Assembly: GCA_025355325.1 (NCBI GenBank)
Contig: JANXZX010000235.1
Coordinates: 1 to 41,724, forward strand
Length of the DNA: 41,724 nucleotides
Origin: Geobacteraceae bacterium
GTDB taxonomy: Bacteria; Desulfobacterota; Desulfuromonadia; Geobacterales; Pseudopelobacteraceae
Direction of reading: 5' to 3'
The notes under the pieces are model-generated. The model did not search any database. It was not told the origin of the DNA and saw nothing but the letters and a program-made list of their open reading frames with translations. Both the position numbers and the translations under genes were made by a program. Positions 25,019-32,549 of the stretch are shown in pieces; position 1 is the first letter of the stretch, and every line of letters starts with the position of its first letter.

Positions 25019-28000
25019 TCAGCCGTTCGCCCCCATATAAGCCGACGAAGTCCCTTGCTGCCAGATATAGCTGTAGACCTCCCTTGCCGCAGCCTGCTTG
25101 TCATCATCAGTGAACGGTGGTGACGGCAGCAGTGGATAAAGGTGATCGAGGATAAATACTTCTACCTCCGCTTGTGTCTGTTCCTTCTGTGTCCACTGTT
25201 CCAGTGGCGCCAGCAACGCCCGGATCTCACGTAACAGGCTGCGACTGGCAACCTTTACCCGTTCACGTTCAGCCTTGCCCAGGTCATCTCGCAGCAACAG
25301 GCAGAACAGTGCGTATTCCTCTTCTGACAATCCCTCTTCTACGACCCGGCGCTGCTCGTCATCAAGGCTGGCGGCCAGATCAGCCAGTCTGGTAAAGGTG
25401 TCCTCTATGCTGACTCGATCTTTCTCGCGATTATAGTCGGCAATGATCTCCTGATAGCGCTTGTAGTAATCCATTCGCAACGGATTGCGACTCAGCATGT
25501 CGGCGAGTTTTTTCTCCACAATCTCTCGGATGTCCTGGAGCGCAGTAGCCTTGCGGCGCACTTTGCGAGCGAATTCATCCCGAAGTTTTTCAAGATCAAT
25601 ACTGCTCAGGTCGTAGAACGTGCTTTCTGCGGGAGGTTCTGCGGCTGATGTCTGTGCGCGGATCGCTTCATTGACAATACGGTGCAATTCCTTGAGCAGT
25701 GCCGTCACATCGGCGGTGTCCCGCCGTTCCGTCAGCTTCTTGTATATCGCCTCGATATTGTCATGGCGCTCGGCAAACAGCAGGGCGGACGGTTCCATCA
25801 GCAAGCCTTTGAAACGGATAAACACCTGACGGGCCATTATCTCATAGCGTCGCTTGGATTCATCGGATGTGTAGACCGCCTCCACTCCATCAGCCAGTAA
25901 CTGGATGCGAGTGAAGCCTTTTGCACCGATCAACTGCGCCGCATCGAATCCAAGTGAAAGCAGATGCCGTTCCGTCTCTTCGATGGCATCCTTCAGCGCA
26001 ACAACGCGCTCCTCTACAGGCGCAACGATCTCTTCTCCACTGCCACCCTCGTCGCCAAGGGCATATTGTGCCAGCGCCTCCCGCAAACTTTTCAGCATGC
26101 CGTTGTAGTCCACTATCAGCCCAAAGTCTTTGCCAGGGAAGCGTCGGTTGGCGCGGGCGATTGCCTGCATCAGGGTGTGGGCTTTCATCGGTTTGTCGAT
26201 ATACAGCGTGGAAAGGCATTCCACATCGAATCCGGTCAGCCACATGGCGCATACGATGGCGATACGGAAAGGATGATCCGGATTCTTGAAAGCCGTCTCG
26301 ACATCCACCCGCTTGCCATCCGGAGTCTCGAAACCCTGCTTCATGATGGCTCGGTGGGGGATGATATCGAACTTCCATTTCTTGAAAGCTGCAACTTCGC
26401 CCTGAGCCTCGCTGATGATGATCTCGATGATGGTGCTCTCCAGCCAGGCTGCCTGTGCGGCGAGGTGGTTCCTCTGGTCGGTCAGCAGCTGTCTGGTGTC
26501 GCTGTCACACGGCACACTCAAAGCGGCTTCACGTGCCAGCACCTCTTTTTGCACATACGCCAACTTCTTTTTCCATCTCGGGATGATCAGTTTGTGCATC
26601 CTGGCACAGGTGATTTTATCGATGCAGACCAGCATTGATTTGCCCGACTCCCAGCGCGTAGTGGCATGCATCACAAAATCGTCGGCCAGTTTCTCCAGTC
26701 GATCATCGGCAGTGATGACTTCGTAATCCTTGCCCAGCAGTTTTTCCAGCAGCGCCGTCTGATCCTGATCCAAATCCGCTTTCTCAACCGCTTCGGCGAT
26801 CCGGTCATTTAGATCGAGTCGGGCGATGCCCAGTTTCTCTCCCCGGTTTTCGTAGACCAGTTTGACCGTAGCGCCATCTTCTTCGGAGCGTTTGAAGTCA
26901 TAGCAGGAGACGTAACCGCCGAATATTCGTTTTGTCAGATTGTCATGCTTGAAGAGCGGTGTGCCGGTAAAACCGATAAAGGCGGCATTGGGGAGCGCCA
27001 GTCGCATGTTGCGAGCCAACTTGCCGGACTGGGTTCGGTGTGCTTCGTCAGAAATTACAATGATGTCGTCACGGCGGCTGTACGGCTCTTCCGGATTAAT
27101 TCCCTGGTTGAACTTGTGGATCAGACTGAAAATATAGCGGTGGTTCTCTTTAAGAAGCTGCTCCAGCTCCTTGCCGGAAGTTGCCCGTGGCGTTTGTTCA
27201 TCGGCAGCGCCACACCCTACAAAGGTTCGATAAATCTGGCCGTCCAGATCATTCCGGTCGGTCATCATTACAAAGGTAAAATTGCCCGGCACTGTCCGGC
27301 GCACCTTCTCGGTGAAGAAGGCCATGGAATAAGACTTTCCGCTCCCTTGCGTATGCCAGAAAACCCCCAGTTTGCCGAGTTCAGGATGGGCGGCTACGGG
27401 GAACCGGAGGGTGTCGGGTTCCGCTGTCTCAACCAGAACCGGCAAATCGCTGTCAGTTGCCAGCTCTCGGGGCAGCTCGATCACCTTATATTTCAGCCGC
27501 TCCTCTGCCGGGAACTGCAGCTTCAACTCTTCCTGGCGGATGACCGAGTCCACGGCACTGTTGACCCCCATCACCTGATGGTTGCGAGCCACAACTTTGC
27601 GCACTGATCCCGGCTTGCTGGCATCGAACAGGATGAAACTTTCCAGGATATCCAGCAGCCGATCCTTGTCCAGCATGCCGTTCAGAAGCACCTCGGCATC
27701 GACATTCCCCTTGTCTCTTTCATCAAGCCGTTTCCACTCGCCGAAATGATCCCATCCGCTGGTAATGGAGCCGTATCGCGCCCGGTGACCATTGCTGACT
27801 ATCAGGAAGGCGTTGTGGTGGAAGGCATGAGCAATGACATGCTCGTCCATATAATCTTTCAGGTTGCCGTCGAATCCGGCGCGGATATTCTTGTAGACTG
27901 CCTTCAGCTCGATGAAAACCAGCGGCAGGCCGTTGACGAAGCATATCAGATCAGCGCGGCGGTTGTAGTTCGGTGTTCGCAAACCGGTGAGTTTCAGCTC

Positions 28001-28426
28001 GCGTACCGCCACAAAGCGGTTATTCGGTTTTCCGTCGGTTGTTCCGTTCTGAAAGTCGATGACTCGCGCCTGTGCATGACGCAGGGTTCCGTTCGGTTCC
28101 CGGTAGTTTACCTGGACGCCATCGCGGATCATTTTGTAGAAGGCTTGATTATGCTGCAGGAGGGAGCGGATGAAATCGTGGTAGGTAAATTTTGTAACCG
28201 CTTCGTCAACAGCCGAGGGCGGGAGTTGAGGGTTCAACGTAACAAGAGCCTGGCGCAAATCGCGCTTTAAGACCACCTCGCGAGTGTCGGCGCGTCCCAG
28301 CAGGCTGTTTGGACCGAAGTCCTCCTGTTTCCATGCATAGACGTTCTCCCAGCCAAGCTCATGTTCCAGATGCTCGGCAAAGGTGGCCTGCACCAGGCGG
28401 TCTTCATTGTTGATGTCGGTGATCAT
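25019..28426 (-). CDS. hsdR: Type I restriction enzyme, restriction/translocation subunit (HsdR)
   Basis: The 1135-residue HsdR cuts unmodified DNA at a distance after ATP-driven translocation. It has a PD-(D/E)xK nuclease site (Asp159 in RADL, Glu173-x-Lys175 in FIELK), and superfamily 2 helicase motifs: Walker A HTQGSGKS (358-365), DEAH (460-463) and GFTGTP (485-490). A long helical C-terminal region binds the methylase core. The start is preceded by GAGGGG. It is the last gene of the hsdM-hsdS-(four-helix-bundle)-hsdR operon and appears intact. Confidence 0.95.
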   Translation of the reverse strand: MITDINNEDRLVQATFAEHLEHELGWENVYAWKQEDFGPNSLLGRADTREVVLKRDLRQALVTLNPQLPPSAVDEAVTKFTYHDFIRSLLQHNQAFYKMIRDGVQVNYREPNGTLRHAQARVIDFQNGTTDGKPNNRFVAVRELKLTGLRTPNYNRRADLICFVNGLPLVFIELKAVYKNIRAGFDGNLKDYMDEHVIAHAFHHNAFLIVSNGHRARYGSITSGWDHFGEWKRLDERDKGNVDAEVLLNGMLDKDRLLDILESFILFDASKPGSVRKVVARNHQVMGVNSAVDSVIRQEELKLQFPAEERLKYKVIELPRELATDSDLPVLVETAEPDTLRFPVAAHPELGKLGVFWHTQGSGKSYSMAFFTEKVRRTVPGNFTFVMMTDRNDLDGQIYRTFVGCGAADEQTPRATSGKELEQLLKENHRYIFSLIHKFNQGINPEEPYSRRDDIIVISDEAHRTQSGKLARNMRLALPNAAFIGFTGTPLFKHDNLTKRIFGGYVSCYDFKRSEEDGATVKLVYENRGEKLGIARLDLNDRIAEAVEKADLDQDQTALLEKLLGKDYEVITADDRLEKLADDFVMHATTRWESGKSMLVCIDKITCARMHKLIIPRWKKKLAYVQKEVLAREAALSVPCDSDTRQLLTDQRNHLAAQAAWLESTIIEIIISEAQGEVAAFKKWKFDIIPHRAIMKQGFETPDGKRVDVETAFKNPDHPFRIAIVCAMWLTGFDVECLSTLYIDKPMKAHTLMQAIARANRRFPGKDFGLIVDYNGMLKSLREALAQYALGDEGGSGEEIVAPVEERVVALKDAIEETERHLLSLGFDAAQLIGAKGFTRIQLLADGVEAVYTSDESKRRYEIMARQVFIRFKGLLMEPSALLFAERHDNIEAIYKKLTERRDTADVTALLKELHRIVNEAIRAQTSAAEPPAESTFYDLSSIDLEKLRDEFARKVRRKATALQDIREIVEKKLADMLSRNPLRMDYYKRYQEIIADYNREKDRVSIEDTFTRLADLAASLDDEQRRVVEEGLSEEEYALFCLLLRDDLGKAERERVKVASRSLLREIRALLAPLEQWTQKEQTQAEVEVFILDHLYPLLPSPPFTDDDKQAAAREVYSYIWQQGTSSAYMGANG

Positions 28427-28453: not shown

Positions 28454-29230
28454 TCAGCCCAACTGACGAGTACTTTTGCATTCCGGGTAACCGGAACAGC
28501 CTAAAAATTGTTTCCCCGCATTTTTCCCCTGCTTTGCCGTGCGCAACACCATCGGCTTGCTGCAGAGCAGACAGGGGGGAAGCGTTAGTGGTGCCTCTGA
28601 CGGCTCGGCGCGATCACGCGGTTCCGACCGATGATACCCACTGCGTTTTTTAATTCGCGCCGCTGCCAACTGTTCGCTATAGCCGCCATCGCTGACAAAG
28701 CTGCGCTCCAAGCCGCTAATCTGCTGGTCAAGCAGGTAATTGGCCTGGTGGATCAGGCAAATGAGTGTGTTGGCAACAACTGCCGGGTCCTGATTGTTCA
28801 GCCAGGCGGCGTATGGTGTGTCATCCGCCGGATTGATCGGATCCGCCCGATCCGGCGGATAGTGAAGCACTTTCCCCACTGACCTTACCGCTTTTGCCTC
28901 AACATCGTCTTTTGTCCACTGCCGCTTGCCGCGTTGGCGCAGAAAATCTTCGTAATCCAGCAGCAACTCATCCAGGCTGGCGCGGGCGACGTTTACCAGG
29001 CGAAGCTCAGTCTGGCTGGAGGTCGCCGAGGCCCGGCTCCCTTCGGCAATGTTCTGTCTGCCGCTGCGTGCCGCCTGCACCATCTGGTCGATCAGGCGGG
29101 AGCGCTTGTCGATGAAACGCTCACAGAATGATACCGTGGCATCGTAGATGATGGTGGTTGTCTGAAAGGAACGCAGAGTGCGGTATCCACCGCTTGGTCG
29201 AAGTTTTTTGTAAGTGGTGTTCTCGGTCAT
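28454..29230 (-). CDS. Four-helix-bundle protein with suffix domain and C-terminal topoisomerase-type zinc finger, in the hsd operon
   Basis: The 258-residue protein has an N-terminal four-helix bundle of the 23S-rRNA-intervening-sequence/Avd-like type (IDKRSRLIDQMVQAARSGRQNIAEGS, then ARASLDELLLDYEDFLRQRG), to about residue 120. A helical 'suffix' of about 75 residues (AAWLNNQDPAVVANTLICLIHQANYLLDQQI) follows, then a C4 zinc finger (Cys220, Cys223, Cys245, Cys251) resembling the C-terminal fingers of type IA topoisomerases. Its ATG overlaps the hsdS stop (ATGA) and it ends 27 bases before hsdR, so it is made with the restriction system. The combination suggests a nucleic-acid-binding accessory factor. 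Its role in restriction is not established. Confidence 0.85.
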   Translation of the reverse strand: MTENTTYKKLRPSGGYRTLRSFQTTTIIYDATVSFCERFIDKRSRLIDQMVQAARSGRQNIAEGSRASATSSQTELRLVNVARASLDELLLDYEDFLRQRGKRQWTKDDVEAKAVRSVGKVLHYPPDRADPINPADDTPYAAWLNNQDPAVVANTLICLIHQANYLLDQQISGLERSFVSDGGYSEQLAAARIKKRSGYHRSEPRDRAEPSEAPLTLPPCLLCSKPMVLRTAKQGKNAGKQFLGCSGYPECKSTRQLG

Positions 29231-30366
29231 ACGCTGATGTCTCCATTCATCAGTTTTGGTAGCAGCAGGTCGCGGGCGGTGCGGAGTTTTTGTTTCATTT
29301 CCCCCAATTTGTTTATCTGGCTGTGCATCGGGGTAACTGCCTCGATAAAACTACGCATGATTCGGTTTGGCGGCAGTAGCAACTCCCGGCTATAGGCAAA
29401 ATCTCGATTAAGTCCCGGCACCGCAACGTCTGTGCTCATGAAATGCATATTCTTTAGAGCATAGTACAGATAAAAGTTGCTCGACTCGGCGTTGATGAAA
29501 TATACCGTATCAATTGGGTAGAAGTCTTTGTTAGCCCAGAACACGCTTCCAACATTGCCTTTGCGGCCAACGATGATGGCAGGTCCAGGAACCAGAGGCT
29601 TTTCGTGCGAGCCTACAATCCCGCTTGATCCATAAACCGGAAATGGCCCCTCGACTCGGATTTCAGCTTTAAGAGCCTTGCCGTAGCTCAGAGTTACATG
29701 TTCTCCCAGCCTTTTTCTCACCCACCCCTCCGGCACTCCATCCACAATGCGGGTATGCTCACGACCGGGGAAGCGCAGGCGCACGAACCACTCCTGGTAC
29801 ACCTGCCGCGCCGCATCTTCCAGCAGAGCCATCCGCCGCCGGTTGTTTTCGATCAGGTCGTCGTAGGTGGAGAGGATGGTGGCGATGCGTTGCTGAGTAT
29901 CAACGTTAGGGGAAGAAATCTTCATCTGTTTAAGCAAAATGATTGTATATGCTGCTTGAGAAGTCCCGATAGTACTTTTATTAAGTTCAGCTTTTCCGTT
30001 CGGAGATTGCAGCCAGTAATAAACAAATTTACTGTCCAAGCCATCGAAAGAACGAAACCAAGTAAGGTTACCATCTTTGAAGTAAAATGCTTCGTCCGTA
30101 CTCACGTAAAAAGGAACACCGAGCGTCCCTACCGAGGTTAGGAGCAAATCCCCCACTTGTGGTGCTCCAAATTTATCAACGATTTCTTCAAACCGGTTTC
30201 TTGGTATAAACAACTCTGTCGAAACATGTTGAGCACCATTGAATTTTTCGACGACTTCTTTCCCGCGAAAAAATGGGACTCCCTCAGGAGTATATTCATG
30301 CGCATAAATTCTTTTACTCGAAGTAATGTCACAAAGTTCACCTATTTGTTTTGTGACCCAACTCAT
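29227..30366 (-). CDS. hsdS: Type I restriction enzyme specificity subunit (HsdS)
   Basis: The 379-residue HsdS chooses the bipartite target sequence for methylation and cleavage. It has two target-recognition domains: the first begins SWVTKQIGELCDITSSKRI, the second around PEGWVRKRLGEHVTLSYGKALKAE. They are separated by the conserved helical spacer (ATILSTYDDLIENNRRRMALLEDAARQVYQEWF), with a matching C-terminal helix (INKLGEMKQKLRTARDLLLPKLMNG). The target sequence cannot be read from the protein. Both ends overlap neighbours by ATGA junctions (hsdM upstream, four-helix-bundle gene downstream), enforcing balanced synthesis. Confidence 0.94.
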   Translation of the reverse strand: MSWVTKQIGELCDITSSKRIYAHEYTPEGVPFFRGKEVVEKFNGAQHVSTELFIPRNRFEEIVDKFGAPQVGDLLLTSVGTLGVPFYVSTDEAFYFKDGNLTWFRSFDGLDSKFVYYWLQSPNGKAELNKSTIGTSQAAYTIILLKQMKISSPNVDTQQRIATILSTYDDLIENNRRRMALLEDAARQVYQEWFVRLRFPGREHTRIVDGVPEGWVRKRLGEHVTLSYGKALKAEIRVEGPFPVYGSSGIVGSHEKPLVPGPAIIVGRKGNVGSVFWANKDFYPIDTVYFINAESSNFYLYYALKNMHFMSTDVAVPGLNRDFAYSRELLLPPNRIMRSFIEAVTPMHSQINKLGEMKQKLRTARDLLLPKLMNGDISV

Positions 30367-32549
30367 ACCCCCAACTCCTCAAAATTCTCCTGAATCCGCG
30401 CCGCCAGCTCCACCGCTTCCCGGTTCAGATCCGCCAGCTCAACATGAATATCCTTGAGCGTCTGCTCAAAATCGAAATCCTCATCCACCTCTGCCGCAGC
30501 AACTCCCACGTAGCGACCAGGGGTCAAACTCCAATCGGCAGCCTCGATCTCAGCTCTGCTGACTACCTTGCATAATCCCGGCACGGTTGCCATCACAGCA
30601 TCAGGGAAACGCTCCTCCAGCCAGTGAATCTGCCGGTGAAAGTAAACAGCCAGCTTGAGCTGTTCCACGGTCAGTTTGCGTTGCTCATCCAGTTGTTTGA
30701 TCAGTTTGTTGGCAGCCCGGCGGTCGTAAAATTCGGCAGCCTCTTGCGTTCCAGCCAGTTCCTGCGCCACCTGACCGACGCGGGCGGCAAGTTTGTAGAG
30801 CAGATCCACTTGCTTTACCAATCCCCTGACACCCTCAGCCAAGGGGTCAAAACCCTGGCGGGCTGTGTGCTGATCACTATTGGTTGTTGGCAGAGTTGCA
30901 TACGTTTTCAGGAAGGTTGCCAGATCAGCCAGCAGAGATATCCGGTCAACCTGGTAGGCATTGGCTGCTTCGGTGTACTCCATCAGGGCCTCGATCAATG
31001 GCTGCCGCTGATAATCAAGCTCCCCCCTTGATAAAGGGGGGCTGGGGGAGATTTGCTTTTTACCGTCAGAGGCAAATCCCCCTAAATCCCCCTTTATCAA
31101 GGGGGACTTTAATGACTCGGCAAATTCAGCATATAGCTTCTGCAGCTCAGTCAGGGTTTTATCGAAAACATCCAGCTCTGCCGGAATGGCAGCAGTTTCT
31201 TCGCACAGTTTACCGAAGTATTCCTGTACCAGTCCGAGGAAGCGTTCCTGTTGACCACGATACAGCCAGACGATGGCGGTCAGGTTGGCGAGCTGCTCCG
31301 GGCTGAAGTCGTAAATTTTGCGGGTGACTTTGCGGTAGATGTTTCGCGCATCCAGCATCAACACCTGGTCGCGCCGTTCTGCGGGCTTCCCTTTGTCAAA
31401 GTGCCACAATTCACACGGCACGGTGCGGGTGTAGAAGAAGTTGGAGCGGATGGAGATCATTACATCTACATCGCCGGTCTCGACCAGCTTGCGCCGCACC
31501 TCGGCCTCGCCATGTCCGCCGCTGGACGCCTGCGATGACATGACAAAACCGGCTCGACCGTTTGGCCCGAGGTAACTGTGGAAGTAGGAGATCCAGAGAT
31601 AGTTGCCGTTGCTGACTTTCTTGGCTTTGTTGACCCCCGGCAGGCCGAAGGGGAGGCGGCGGTCGTCCTTGACCTTGTCCGCGTCCACCATATCCACGTT
31701 GAACGGCGGATTTGCCATGACAAAATCGCACTCGCCCCAGATGTCATGGACATCTTCGTAGAAGGTGTTGGCTTCGCGGATGTGCCCTTCCAGTCCATGC
31801 ACGGCCAGGTTCATCTTGGCCAGACGGATGGTTGTGCCGGTCTTTTCCTGGCCGTAAAAGGTGACTTTATGTCCGGTGTCTTGCCCGTGGCTCTCGATGA
31901 AATGGCTGGATTGGACGAACATGCCGCCGGAGCCGCAAGCCGGGTCGAGGACGATGCCGTGATCCGGCTCGATCACGTTGACGATGGTCTGCACCAGCGA
32001 GGGTGGGGTAAAGAATTCGCCGTTGTCCTGCGCTCCCTGCATGGCAAATTTCATCAGGAAGTATTCGTAGATCCGGCCAAACAGGTCTCCGCTGGCTGTG
32101 CGTAGCGCCTGCGAGTCGAAGGTGCGCAGAATATCTTCCAGCAGCGTATCCTCGAATTTGTCATACTCCTTGGGAAGCTGGCCTCGCAGCGGTTCGAACT
32201 CCGCCTCGATGGCATTCATGGCTTCCACCAGAGCAGTGCCAAGACTGGCGCCGGTAGGGAGTTTCAGCAGATAGCCATACCGACCGTTCTCCGGCAGCAT
32301 TAGTGCGCGGCGTTTGATGAAGTCACCCTTCACCAGCGGTCGGTTGGGCATCTTGCCGTCAGCCTGCTCGGCTTTTATCTGTGCCAGGGCGGTCTCGTAG
32401 CGGTTACTGGCGTGACGCAGGAAGATGATTCCCAGCACCGGCATGCAGTATTCGCTGGAGGTCAGCTTGGAGTTGGCGCGAAGTTGATCGGCAGCTTCCC
32501 AGAGGCTGGATTCGATTTTTTCTATGGTGTGCATTGTGTTGGCGGTCAT
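30363..32549 (-). CDS. hsdM: Type I restriction-modification DNA methyltransferase (HsdM) with in-frame repeat insertion
   Basis: The 728-residue N6-adenine methyltransferase has an N-terminal HsdM bundle (SLWEAADQLRANSKLTSSEY), SAM motif I DPACGSGGMF (202-211) and catalytic NPPFN (280-284). It is longer than many HsdM proteins. Residues of about 481-511, proline/glycine-rich and unlike the rest, are encoded by an inverted palindromic repeat inserted without breaking the frame, outside the catalytic core. HsdM with HsdS methylates the host sites, and with HsdR it forms the restriction complex. A GGAG lies eleven bases before the ATG at 32549, and a later ATG at 32534 is possible. It is first in the hsd operon. 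Confidence 0.94.
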   Translation of the reverse strand: MTANTMHTIEKIESSLWEAADQLRANSKLTSSEYCMPVLGIIFLRHASNRYETALAQIKAEQADGKMPNRPLVKGDFIKRRALMLPENGRYGYLLKLPTGASLGTALVEAMNAIEAEFEPLRGQLPKEYDKFEDTLLEDILRTFDSQALRTASGDLFGRIYEYFLMKFAMQGAQDNGEFFTPPSLVQTIVNVIEPDHGIVLDPACGSGGMFVQSSHFIESHGQDTGHKVTFYGQEKTGTTIRLAKMNLAVHGLEGHIREANTFYEDVHDIWGECDFVMANPPFNVDMVDADKVKDDRRLPFGLPGVNKAKKVSNGNYLWISYFHSYLGPNGRAGFVMSSQASSGGHGEAEVRRKLVETGDVDVMISIRSNFFYTRTVPCELWHFDKGKPAERRDQVLMLDARNIYRKVTRKIYDFSPEQLANLTAIVWLYRGQQERFLGLVQEYFGKLCEETAAIPAELDVFDKTLTELQKLYAEFAESLKSPLIKGDLGGFASDGKKQISPSPPLSRGELDYQRQPLIEALMEYTEAANAYQVDRISLLADLATFLKTYATLPTTNSDQHTARQGFDPLAEGVRGLVKQVDLLYKLAARVGQVAQELAGTQEAAEFYDRRAANKLIKQLDEQRKLTVEQLKLAVYFHRQIHWLEERFPDAVMATVPGLCKVVSRAEIEAADWSLTPGRYVGVAAAEVDEDFDFEQTLKDIHVELADLNREAVELAARIQENFEELGV
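31017..31109. repeat. Palindromic repeat element inserted in hsdM
   Basis: Two arms of about 38 bases face each other around a short spacer. Each contains a small hairpin (CCCCCTTGATAAAGGGGG type) followed by a C- or G-run and AAATC/GATTT. The unit resembles the abundant 'CCCCCTT-n-AAGGGGG' dispersed repeats of Geobacter-like and cyanobacterial genomes (from memory). Its length, counted from the codons for residues 481 to 511, is a multiple of three and it contains no stop in the hsdM frame. It therefore adds about 31 residues to the methylase instead of inactivating it. Confidence 0.8.

Follow-up and report, generated by a model that had tools for sequence, protein, structure and literature searches.

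An in-frame pair of inverted triplex motifs in a type I methylase gene of a Geobacteraceae bacterium, and its probable relation to DUF559 nuclease genes

Rickettsia palindromic elements (RPEs) and further small repeats, namely RU-1/RU-2 and intragenic REPs, are dispersed palindromes of about 100 bp that conserved proteins contain in translated form, in frame (PMC2229807, PMC3767692, PMC3733652 and PMC2759123). For Geobacter bemidjiensis and G. metallireducens, a multicopy family inserted in protein genes without frameshifts, in 'all reading frames', is reported in the relevant section of PMC2996986, and the abstract of PMC2700814 mentions multicopy sequences 'even within genes'. The repeats TM_ECO and PIT, consisting of a hairpin plus a third strand, belong to the G/C-rich class II of Holder et al. 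2015 (PMC4666352), whose criteria, as set out there in part, are a block of pyrimidines, the complement of this block and a third strand in mirror arrangement, with a stem of 6-15 nt, loops of 1-6 nt and one mismatch permitted where the stem is longer than 7. According to the same portion of that paper, E. coli K-12 has five inverted pairs of such triplex motifs (TMs), each pair made of two motif types.

The window, that is, the whole stretch of 41,724 nt analysed here, contained hsdM (nt 30363..32549, minus strand) encoding a 728-aa subunit of a type I N6-adenine DNA methyltransferase, with the Pfam domains HsdM_N (residues 12-135) and N6_Mtase (residues 153-427), which was called MTase_I by PADLOC (7.2e-251). 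It was part of a type I system together with hsdS (nt 29227..30366, minus strand; Pfam Methylase_S), encoding the specificity subunit, hsdR (nt 25019..28426, minus strand; Pfam SWI2_SNF2 and HSDR_N), encoding a restriction subunit of 1135 aa, and, between these two, an ORF (nt 28454..29230, minus strand) for a protein with a four-helix bundle (23S IVP-like) and a zinc ribbon. The original prediction placed a palindrome in the hsdM frame without a stop or frameshift, and this was borne out: the frame was open throughout, and a repeat search of nt 30800-31300 returned a single inverted pair (31023-31063 / 31065-31105, arms of 41 nt, 80% complementary). The element (nt 31017..31109, minus strand) was read in frame at about residues 482-511 as ...SLKSPLIKGDLGGFASDGKKQISPSPPLSRGELD..., well downstream of what we take to be the catalytic motifs, DPACGSGG (starting near residue 202) and NPPF (residues 280-283), so that its predicted position outside the catalytic motifs also held. 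For the sense strand of the element, folding gave -55.6 kcal/mol with z -5.7, which none of 200 shuffles equalled, and among seven Rfam matches at E up to 1 in nt 30800-31300 none attained its gathering score.

Each half of the element fitted a hairpin plus third strand, that is, a class-II intrastrand TM, in a scan with a custom script (stems of 7-15, at least half C-G*G), and each may form a triplex. Half 1 in the sense direction (nt 31075..31106, minus strand) had a spacer of the ATTTA type and encoded SPLIKGDLGGF; half 2 (nt 31022..31052) was a TM of the opposite, plus strand with a CT-type spacer and encoded SPSPPLSRGE in hsdM. These were the only two TMs in the 41.7-kb window, hsdS and hsdR being devoid of them. 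Fold z-scores had been tried on HsdM inserts as well (mean -0.93 for 37 inserts versus -0.08 for 185 control windows, p 0.008) and were replaced by the triplex scan because the z-score performs poorly on C and G tracts.

Among the 80 HsdM loci fetched, the nearest named relatives being Desulfuromonadales/Geobacteraceae MAGs, alignment showed the insert to be absent from the near relatives L017-L020 and L069. The predicted insertion therefore stood, but not its size of about 31 residues: close homologues lacking the element have 705 aa (L018 and L069), so that the protein has become only 23 residues longer, the insert having taken the place of about 8 native ones. Within this alignment the same insert was shared by one relative only, the gene listed both as L016 and as G017/L104 (87% identical). 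Because L017, without insert, was the sister of L016 on the HsdM tree (support 98*), and hsdM DNA of the window and L016 was 82% identical outside the element, the shared insert reflects two independent entries at this loop or else a single entry combined with a loss. Several unrelated genera carried different residues, with palindromes of their own, at the insert loop and at other HsdM loops; the same residues encoded by unrelated DNA in unrelated genera, which would have spoken against a translated repeat, were not seen among the homologues fetched.

In an AlphaFold model of HsdM (58 sequences; mean pLDDT 85, pTM 0.81), the insert occupied about residues 482-507 and connected helix 455-481 with helix 508-549, forming the tip of this helical hairpin as a loop of low confidence, with pLDDT <50 at residues 485-501. 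Whether the insert is a surface loop had been put forward earlier as a point to check, and a loop is what the model predicts; the peptide would be exposed to solvent, as for RPE-like elements, and may be tolerated as a flexible loop.

That the palindrome is dispersed, as originally claimed, was evident from three further long copies in the same genome, one in frame in hypF and two outside long ORFs. The element was matched in 58 of 76 family genomes (8 of 9 genera) and, in the class, in 143 of 277 genomes (46 of 82 genera). Aligned copies shared AAGTCCCCCTT-n-AAAGGGGGATTTAGGGGGATTTG ... CAAATCCCCCCCAGCCCCCCTTT-n-AAAGGGGGG, and in a set of 84 copies, made up of 80 taken in order of rank and the four of the window's genome, TMs were found on both strands in 71 and on one strand in 13. 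Twenty-two of the 84 lay within an open frame of at least 120 aa with 25 codons on each side. The copies in hsdM of the window and of G017 were inserts by alignment; a Pfam domain was matched across the copy in an N6_Mtase protein (L184), and on both sides of it in the HypF proteins from seven genomes (as a single stretch in six, as two stretches in L109). Several other copies just upstream of a domain are probably intergenic. The best 30 hypF loci of the family included 7 with the full insert and 5 with shorter inserts at the same place, which we read as remnants, the rest having no clear insert; since hypF carries the element, methylases are not its sole hosts. The hypF loci concerned were L002, with the element at 1501-1590, and the set L216-L245, which included one tandem expansion (L229). 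A related single-hairpin repeat, TCCCCCCTTATCAGGGGGGA, occurred at five places in the same genome (L010-L013 and L015), and at those that were inspected no long ORF having a known domain enclosed it.

The element resembles MITEs in having terminal inverted repeats, multiple copies and no transposase gene; target-site duplication was not evident, repeats of at least 8 bp being found at only 4 of the 84 copies, with a chance expectation of 1.2%. The palindromic dimer architecture also recalls REPINs, and six PF01797 matches in the genome would provide candidates for a RAYT (Y1) transposase moving such an element. However, the six PF01797 loci of this genome (18.6 kb) contained neither the element (best chance match, E 2.6) nor a TM, so that the association with RAYT genes was missing at these loci, and for this genome a REPIN-type origin appears extremely improbable.

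Other in-frame palindromes were apparent in the alignment of HsdM homologues, and HsdM was selected for testing on the ground that the motif is present in the copy of the window. In 79 of the 80 loci (the broken L091 being left out and other broken homologues represented by their best piece), 20 TMs lay in 15 coding sequences (165 kb) versus 5 in 534 kb of flanking DNA (binomial p 4e-9, with motifs taken as independent), and codon shuffles preserving the proteins yielded 0 TMs per set. Four of the five flanking TMs bracketed DUF559 genes adjoining hsdM in L034 and L048. The TMs in HsdM were located at three places, at about residues 390, 490 and 602, with 10, 3 and 6 carriers, respectively, including the window, and all three were loops in the model (residues 386-394, 482-507 and 600-609, the last with a four-residue helix). 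On the HsdM tree, which comprised the 76 of 80 rows longer than 550 aa, 9, 3 and 6 changes, each a gain or a loss, were required at these sites, so that 19 site-carriers needed 18 changes. Carriers included Pseudomonadota, Thermodesulfobacteriota, Verrucomicrobiota and Fibrobacterota. The in-frame TMs of DNA-methyltransferase genes, spread over several phyla and located at a few loops, point to a recurrent process of which the insert would be one case. Three more hsdM-like genes of the family had the window's own element type in their frame, namely L195, where it was at the 390 loop, L204, and L184, where it lay within the catalytic domain. With one pattern, the repeat at site 390 was sought elsewhere in seven carrier genomes and was found several times in four (G076, 3; G077, 79+75; G079, 10+8; G080, 1+8), once in two and not in one, and the reversed control gave 0 in all seven; a second, exact pattern, which was uninformative, gave 1, 1, 1 and 3 matches in four genomes. 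Longer in-frame palindromes of a CCGG type, which are not TMs, were observed near residues 602 (L059) and 550 (L080) of the HsdM alignment.

A second methylase family, PF01555, was represented by 70 loci of the family (30 best and 40 further), including G016:C10, which had been suspected beforehand; left out were 6 matches within the E-value range (one partial) and weaker ones, among them the DUF559-bearing G016:C18 and G070:C53. Inside 10 of these 70 genes were 18 TMs, or 0.141 per kb versus 0.081 per kb outside, and this excess over all flanking DNA was not significant (p 0.088). Compared with coding DNA, the excess was significant: TMs were present in 25 of 149 methylase genes versus 0 of 414 other neighbouring ORFs of at least 250 aa (496 kb; p 7.5e-16), and for PF01555 alone in 10 of 70 versus 0 of 104 ORFs (p 7e-5), in tests that ignore kinship among genes. 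In these tests and in those against flanking DNA, TMs no more than 90 nt away from the start of an ORF were left uncounted. A strict count of motifs after the domain start, which dropped L391 and L395 with a motif only 98 nt past the assumed start, gave 8 of 70 (p 5e-4). The methylase bias thus holds in the samples taken.

This bias could be expected if the methylase gene or its mRNA contained a triplex or hairpin with a selected function as a switch of methylation, by phase variation or attenuation, and an association of TMs with local instability in E. coli is on record in PMC4666352; yet earlier work cited in that paper found the motifs to be without promoter or terminator activity, and we regard such a switch as very improbable. 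The bias also bears on whether tolerance was merely passive, with elements inserting at random, most coding copies being lost and loops like those of HsdM retaining in-frame ones, in which case DUF559 would be irrelevant to movement. The modelled loops at all three HsdM sites and the copy in hypF, with its shorter remnants at the same place, are what this explanation would predict, but it does not account for the absence of TMs from the 414 neighbouring ORFs and from hsdR and hsdS, nor for a bracketing of DUF559 domains far above control (see below), and it is therefore considered unlikely.

DUF559, which we take to be a small, Vsr-like endonuclease, was matched in 52 of the 76 genomes of the family. 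Seventy loci were analysed, consisting of the 30 best and 20 further, hand-picked ones of the family (two of the latter chosen because element halves were near) and 20 of 30 loci from other genomes (full-length matches). Convergent TM pairs within 200 bp bracketed 38 of the 70 domains (18/30, 10/20 and 10/20 by set), and any TM within 200 bp was found at 62 (25, 18 and 19 by set), leaving 8 without, versus 0 and 18, respectively, for 600 random windows in the HypF and HsdM loci. Among the 43 loci flanked by TMs left and right, the pair was convergent in 38 and reversed in 1, and in 4 the two motifs pointed the same way. Five units of the family (L289, L323, L324, L334 and L337) had the end types of the window's element, with 74-94% identity over about 32 nt, shifts of up to 2 being allowed. 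Direct repeats of at least 8 bp, up to 35 bp, flanked 8 of 37 units (a set not quite the same as the 38 convergent ones) versus 3.6% of mismatched pairs, two of the eight (L289 and L333) lying inside neighbouring repeats. In L048, a DUF559 unit with a 13-bp flanking repeat (L295) was situated between hsdM and hsdS, and the related L033 had no unit there; the L048 protein resembled the endonuclease-like chain 3hrl (E 4e-31). No direct repeat was found around the L034 unit (L294). Over the 76 genomes, counts of the element and of DUF559, which are minimum values per genome, were correlated (rho 0.42, p 1e-4). The genome of the window itself yielded three partial DUF559 matches but no intact gene; one locus, L420:1048-1267, had the order TM, partial DUF559, TM and is apparently an internally deleted unit.

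DUF559 domains were also met within methylases. In HsdM of an Opitutales MAG (L094/L349), the domain lay in frame between two TMs, and seven of the eight strong DUF559 matches followed up in frames of at least 500 aa were DNA methylases (HsdM, MmeI, type ISP and N6_N4). TMs bracketed the domain convergently in L345-L347 and in reversed orientation in L349, and one TM was near it in L348. L343 and L344 had no TM within 200 bp of the domain and may be ordinary methylase-nuclease fusions. The methylase frames L344, L345, L346 and L347, of 924-1227 aa, each possessed four or five TMs in addition to the DUF559 domain.

Because of this bracketing, and since some units have the end types of the element, the latter looks like a non-autonomous derivative of a TM-DUF559-TM unit. 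We consider it rather likely that the insert in hsdM is a dispersed, MITE-like TM pair of about 90 bp that settled in a permissive loop, with DUF559 as the likely mobiliser. Weighing against this reading are the failure to find an intact DUF559 gene in this genome, the missing target duplications at the copies of the element, the L034 unit that has no direct repeat, the non-convergent TM pairs at some DUF559 loci and the loci with no TM near, hypF as a host other than a methylase, and the non-significant excess of TMs in PF01555 over flanking DNA. By this proposal, a non-autonomous element of two inverted class-II TMs, arisen by deletion from a TM-DUF559-TM unit, would have entered hsdM at the tip loop of the helical hairpin and left the gene readable; its mobility, its movement through catalysis by the DUF559 endonuclease, whose gene is often bracketed by TM pairs, and continued activity of HsdM are presumed on the basis of sequence. 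That TM-DUF559-TM units make up an undescribed class of mobile element, with one small nuclease gene between inverted triplex-forming ends, is put forward tentatively, at somewhat less than an even chance.

The exact repeat and peptide strings of the element gave no match in the open-licence literature searched, nor was a link of DUF559 to flanking repeats found there; MITEs of another PD-(D/E)XK family are discussed in a section of PMC4853749. If DUF559 nucleases do move triplex repeats, the origin of these repeats, which the pertinent text of PMC4666352 ties to no mobile element, could be tested directly. From the methylase bias it can be seen where triplex repeats persist inside genes, and it is useful for asking whether restriction-modification genes are refuges; the methylases, as a naturally occurring set of proteins that have acquired loops, also lend themselves to studies of the conversion of repeats into protein.

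In being a dispersed palindrome read in frame, in a protein whose homologues can lack it, the element resembles RPEs, RU-1/RU-2 and intragenic REPs by description and not by sequence; the analogy drawn at the outset with RPEs thus applies to the way of working, a repeat having become protein in a predicted loop, and not to the sequence family. It differs from RPEs in occurring in taxa other than Rickettsia and Wolbachia and in having mainly DNA methylases as hosts. The part of PMC3733652 concerned stresses replication and repair genes and makes no mention of methylase, methyltransferase or restriction. The Geobacter multicopy sequences are alike in their insertion into genes, again by description and not by sequence, and the terms restriction, methylase, methyltransferase, hsdM and endonuclease are absent from the main text of PMC2996986. 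Unlike TM_ECO, which in E. coli K-12 is always intergenic and unlinked to mobile elements according to the text of PMC4666352 dealing with it, the TMs described here lie in frame in methylases and adjoin DUF559 genes. Translated repeats of this sort were already known; within the searches made, what is new is their bias towards methylases and their bracketing of DUF559.
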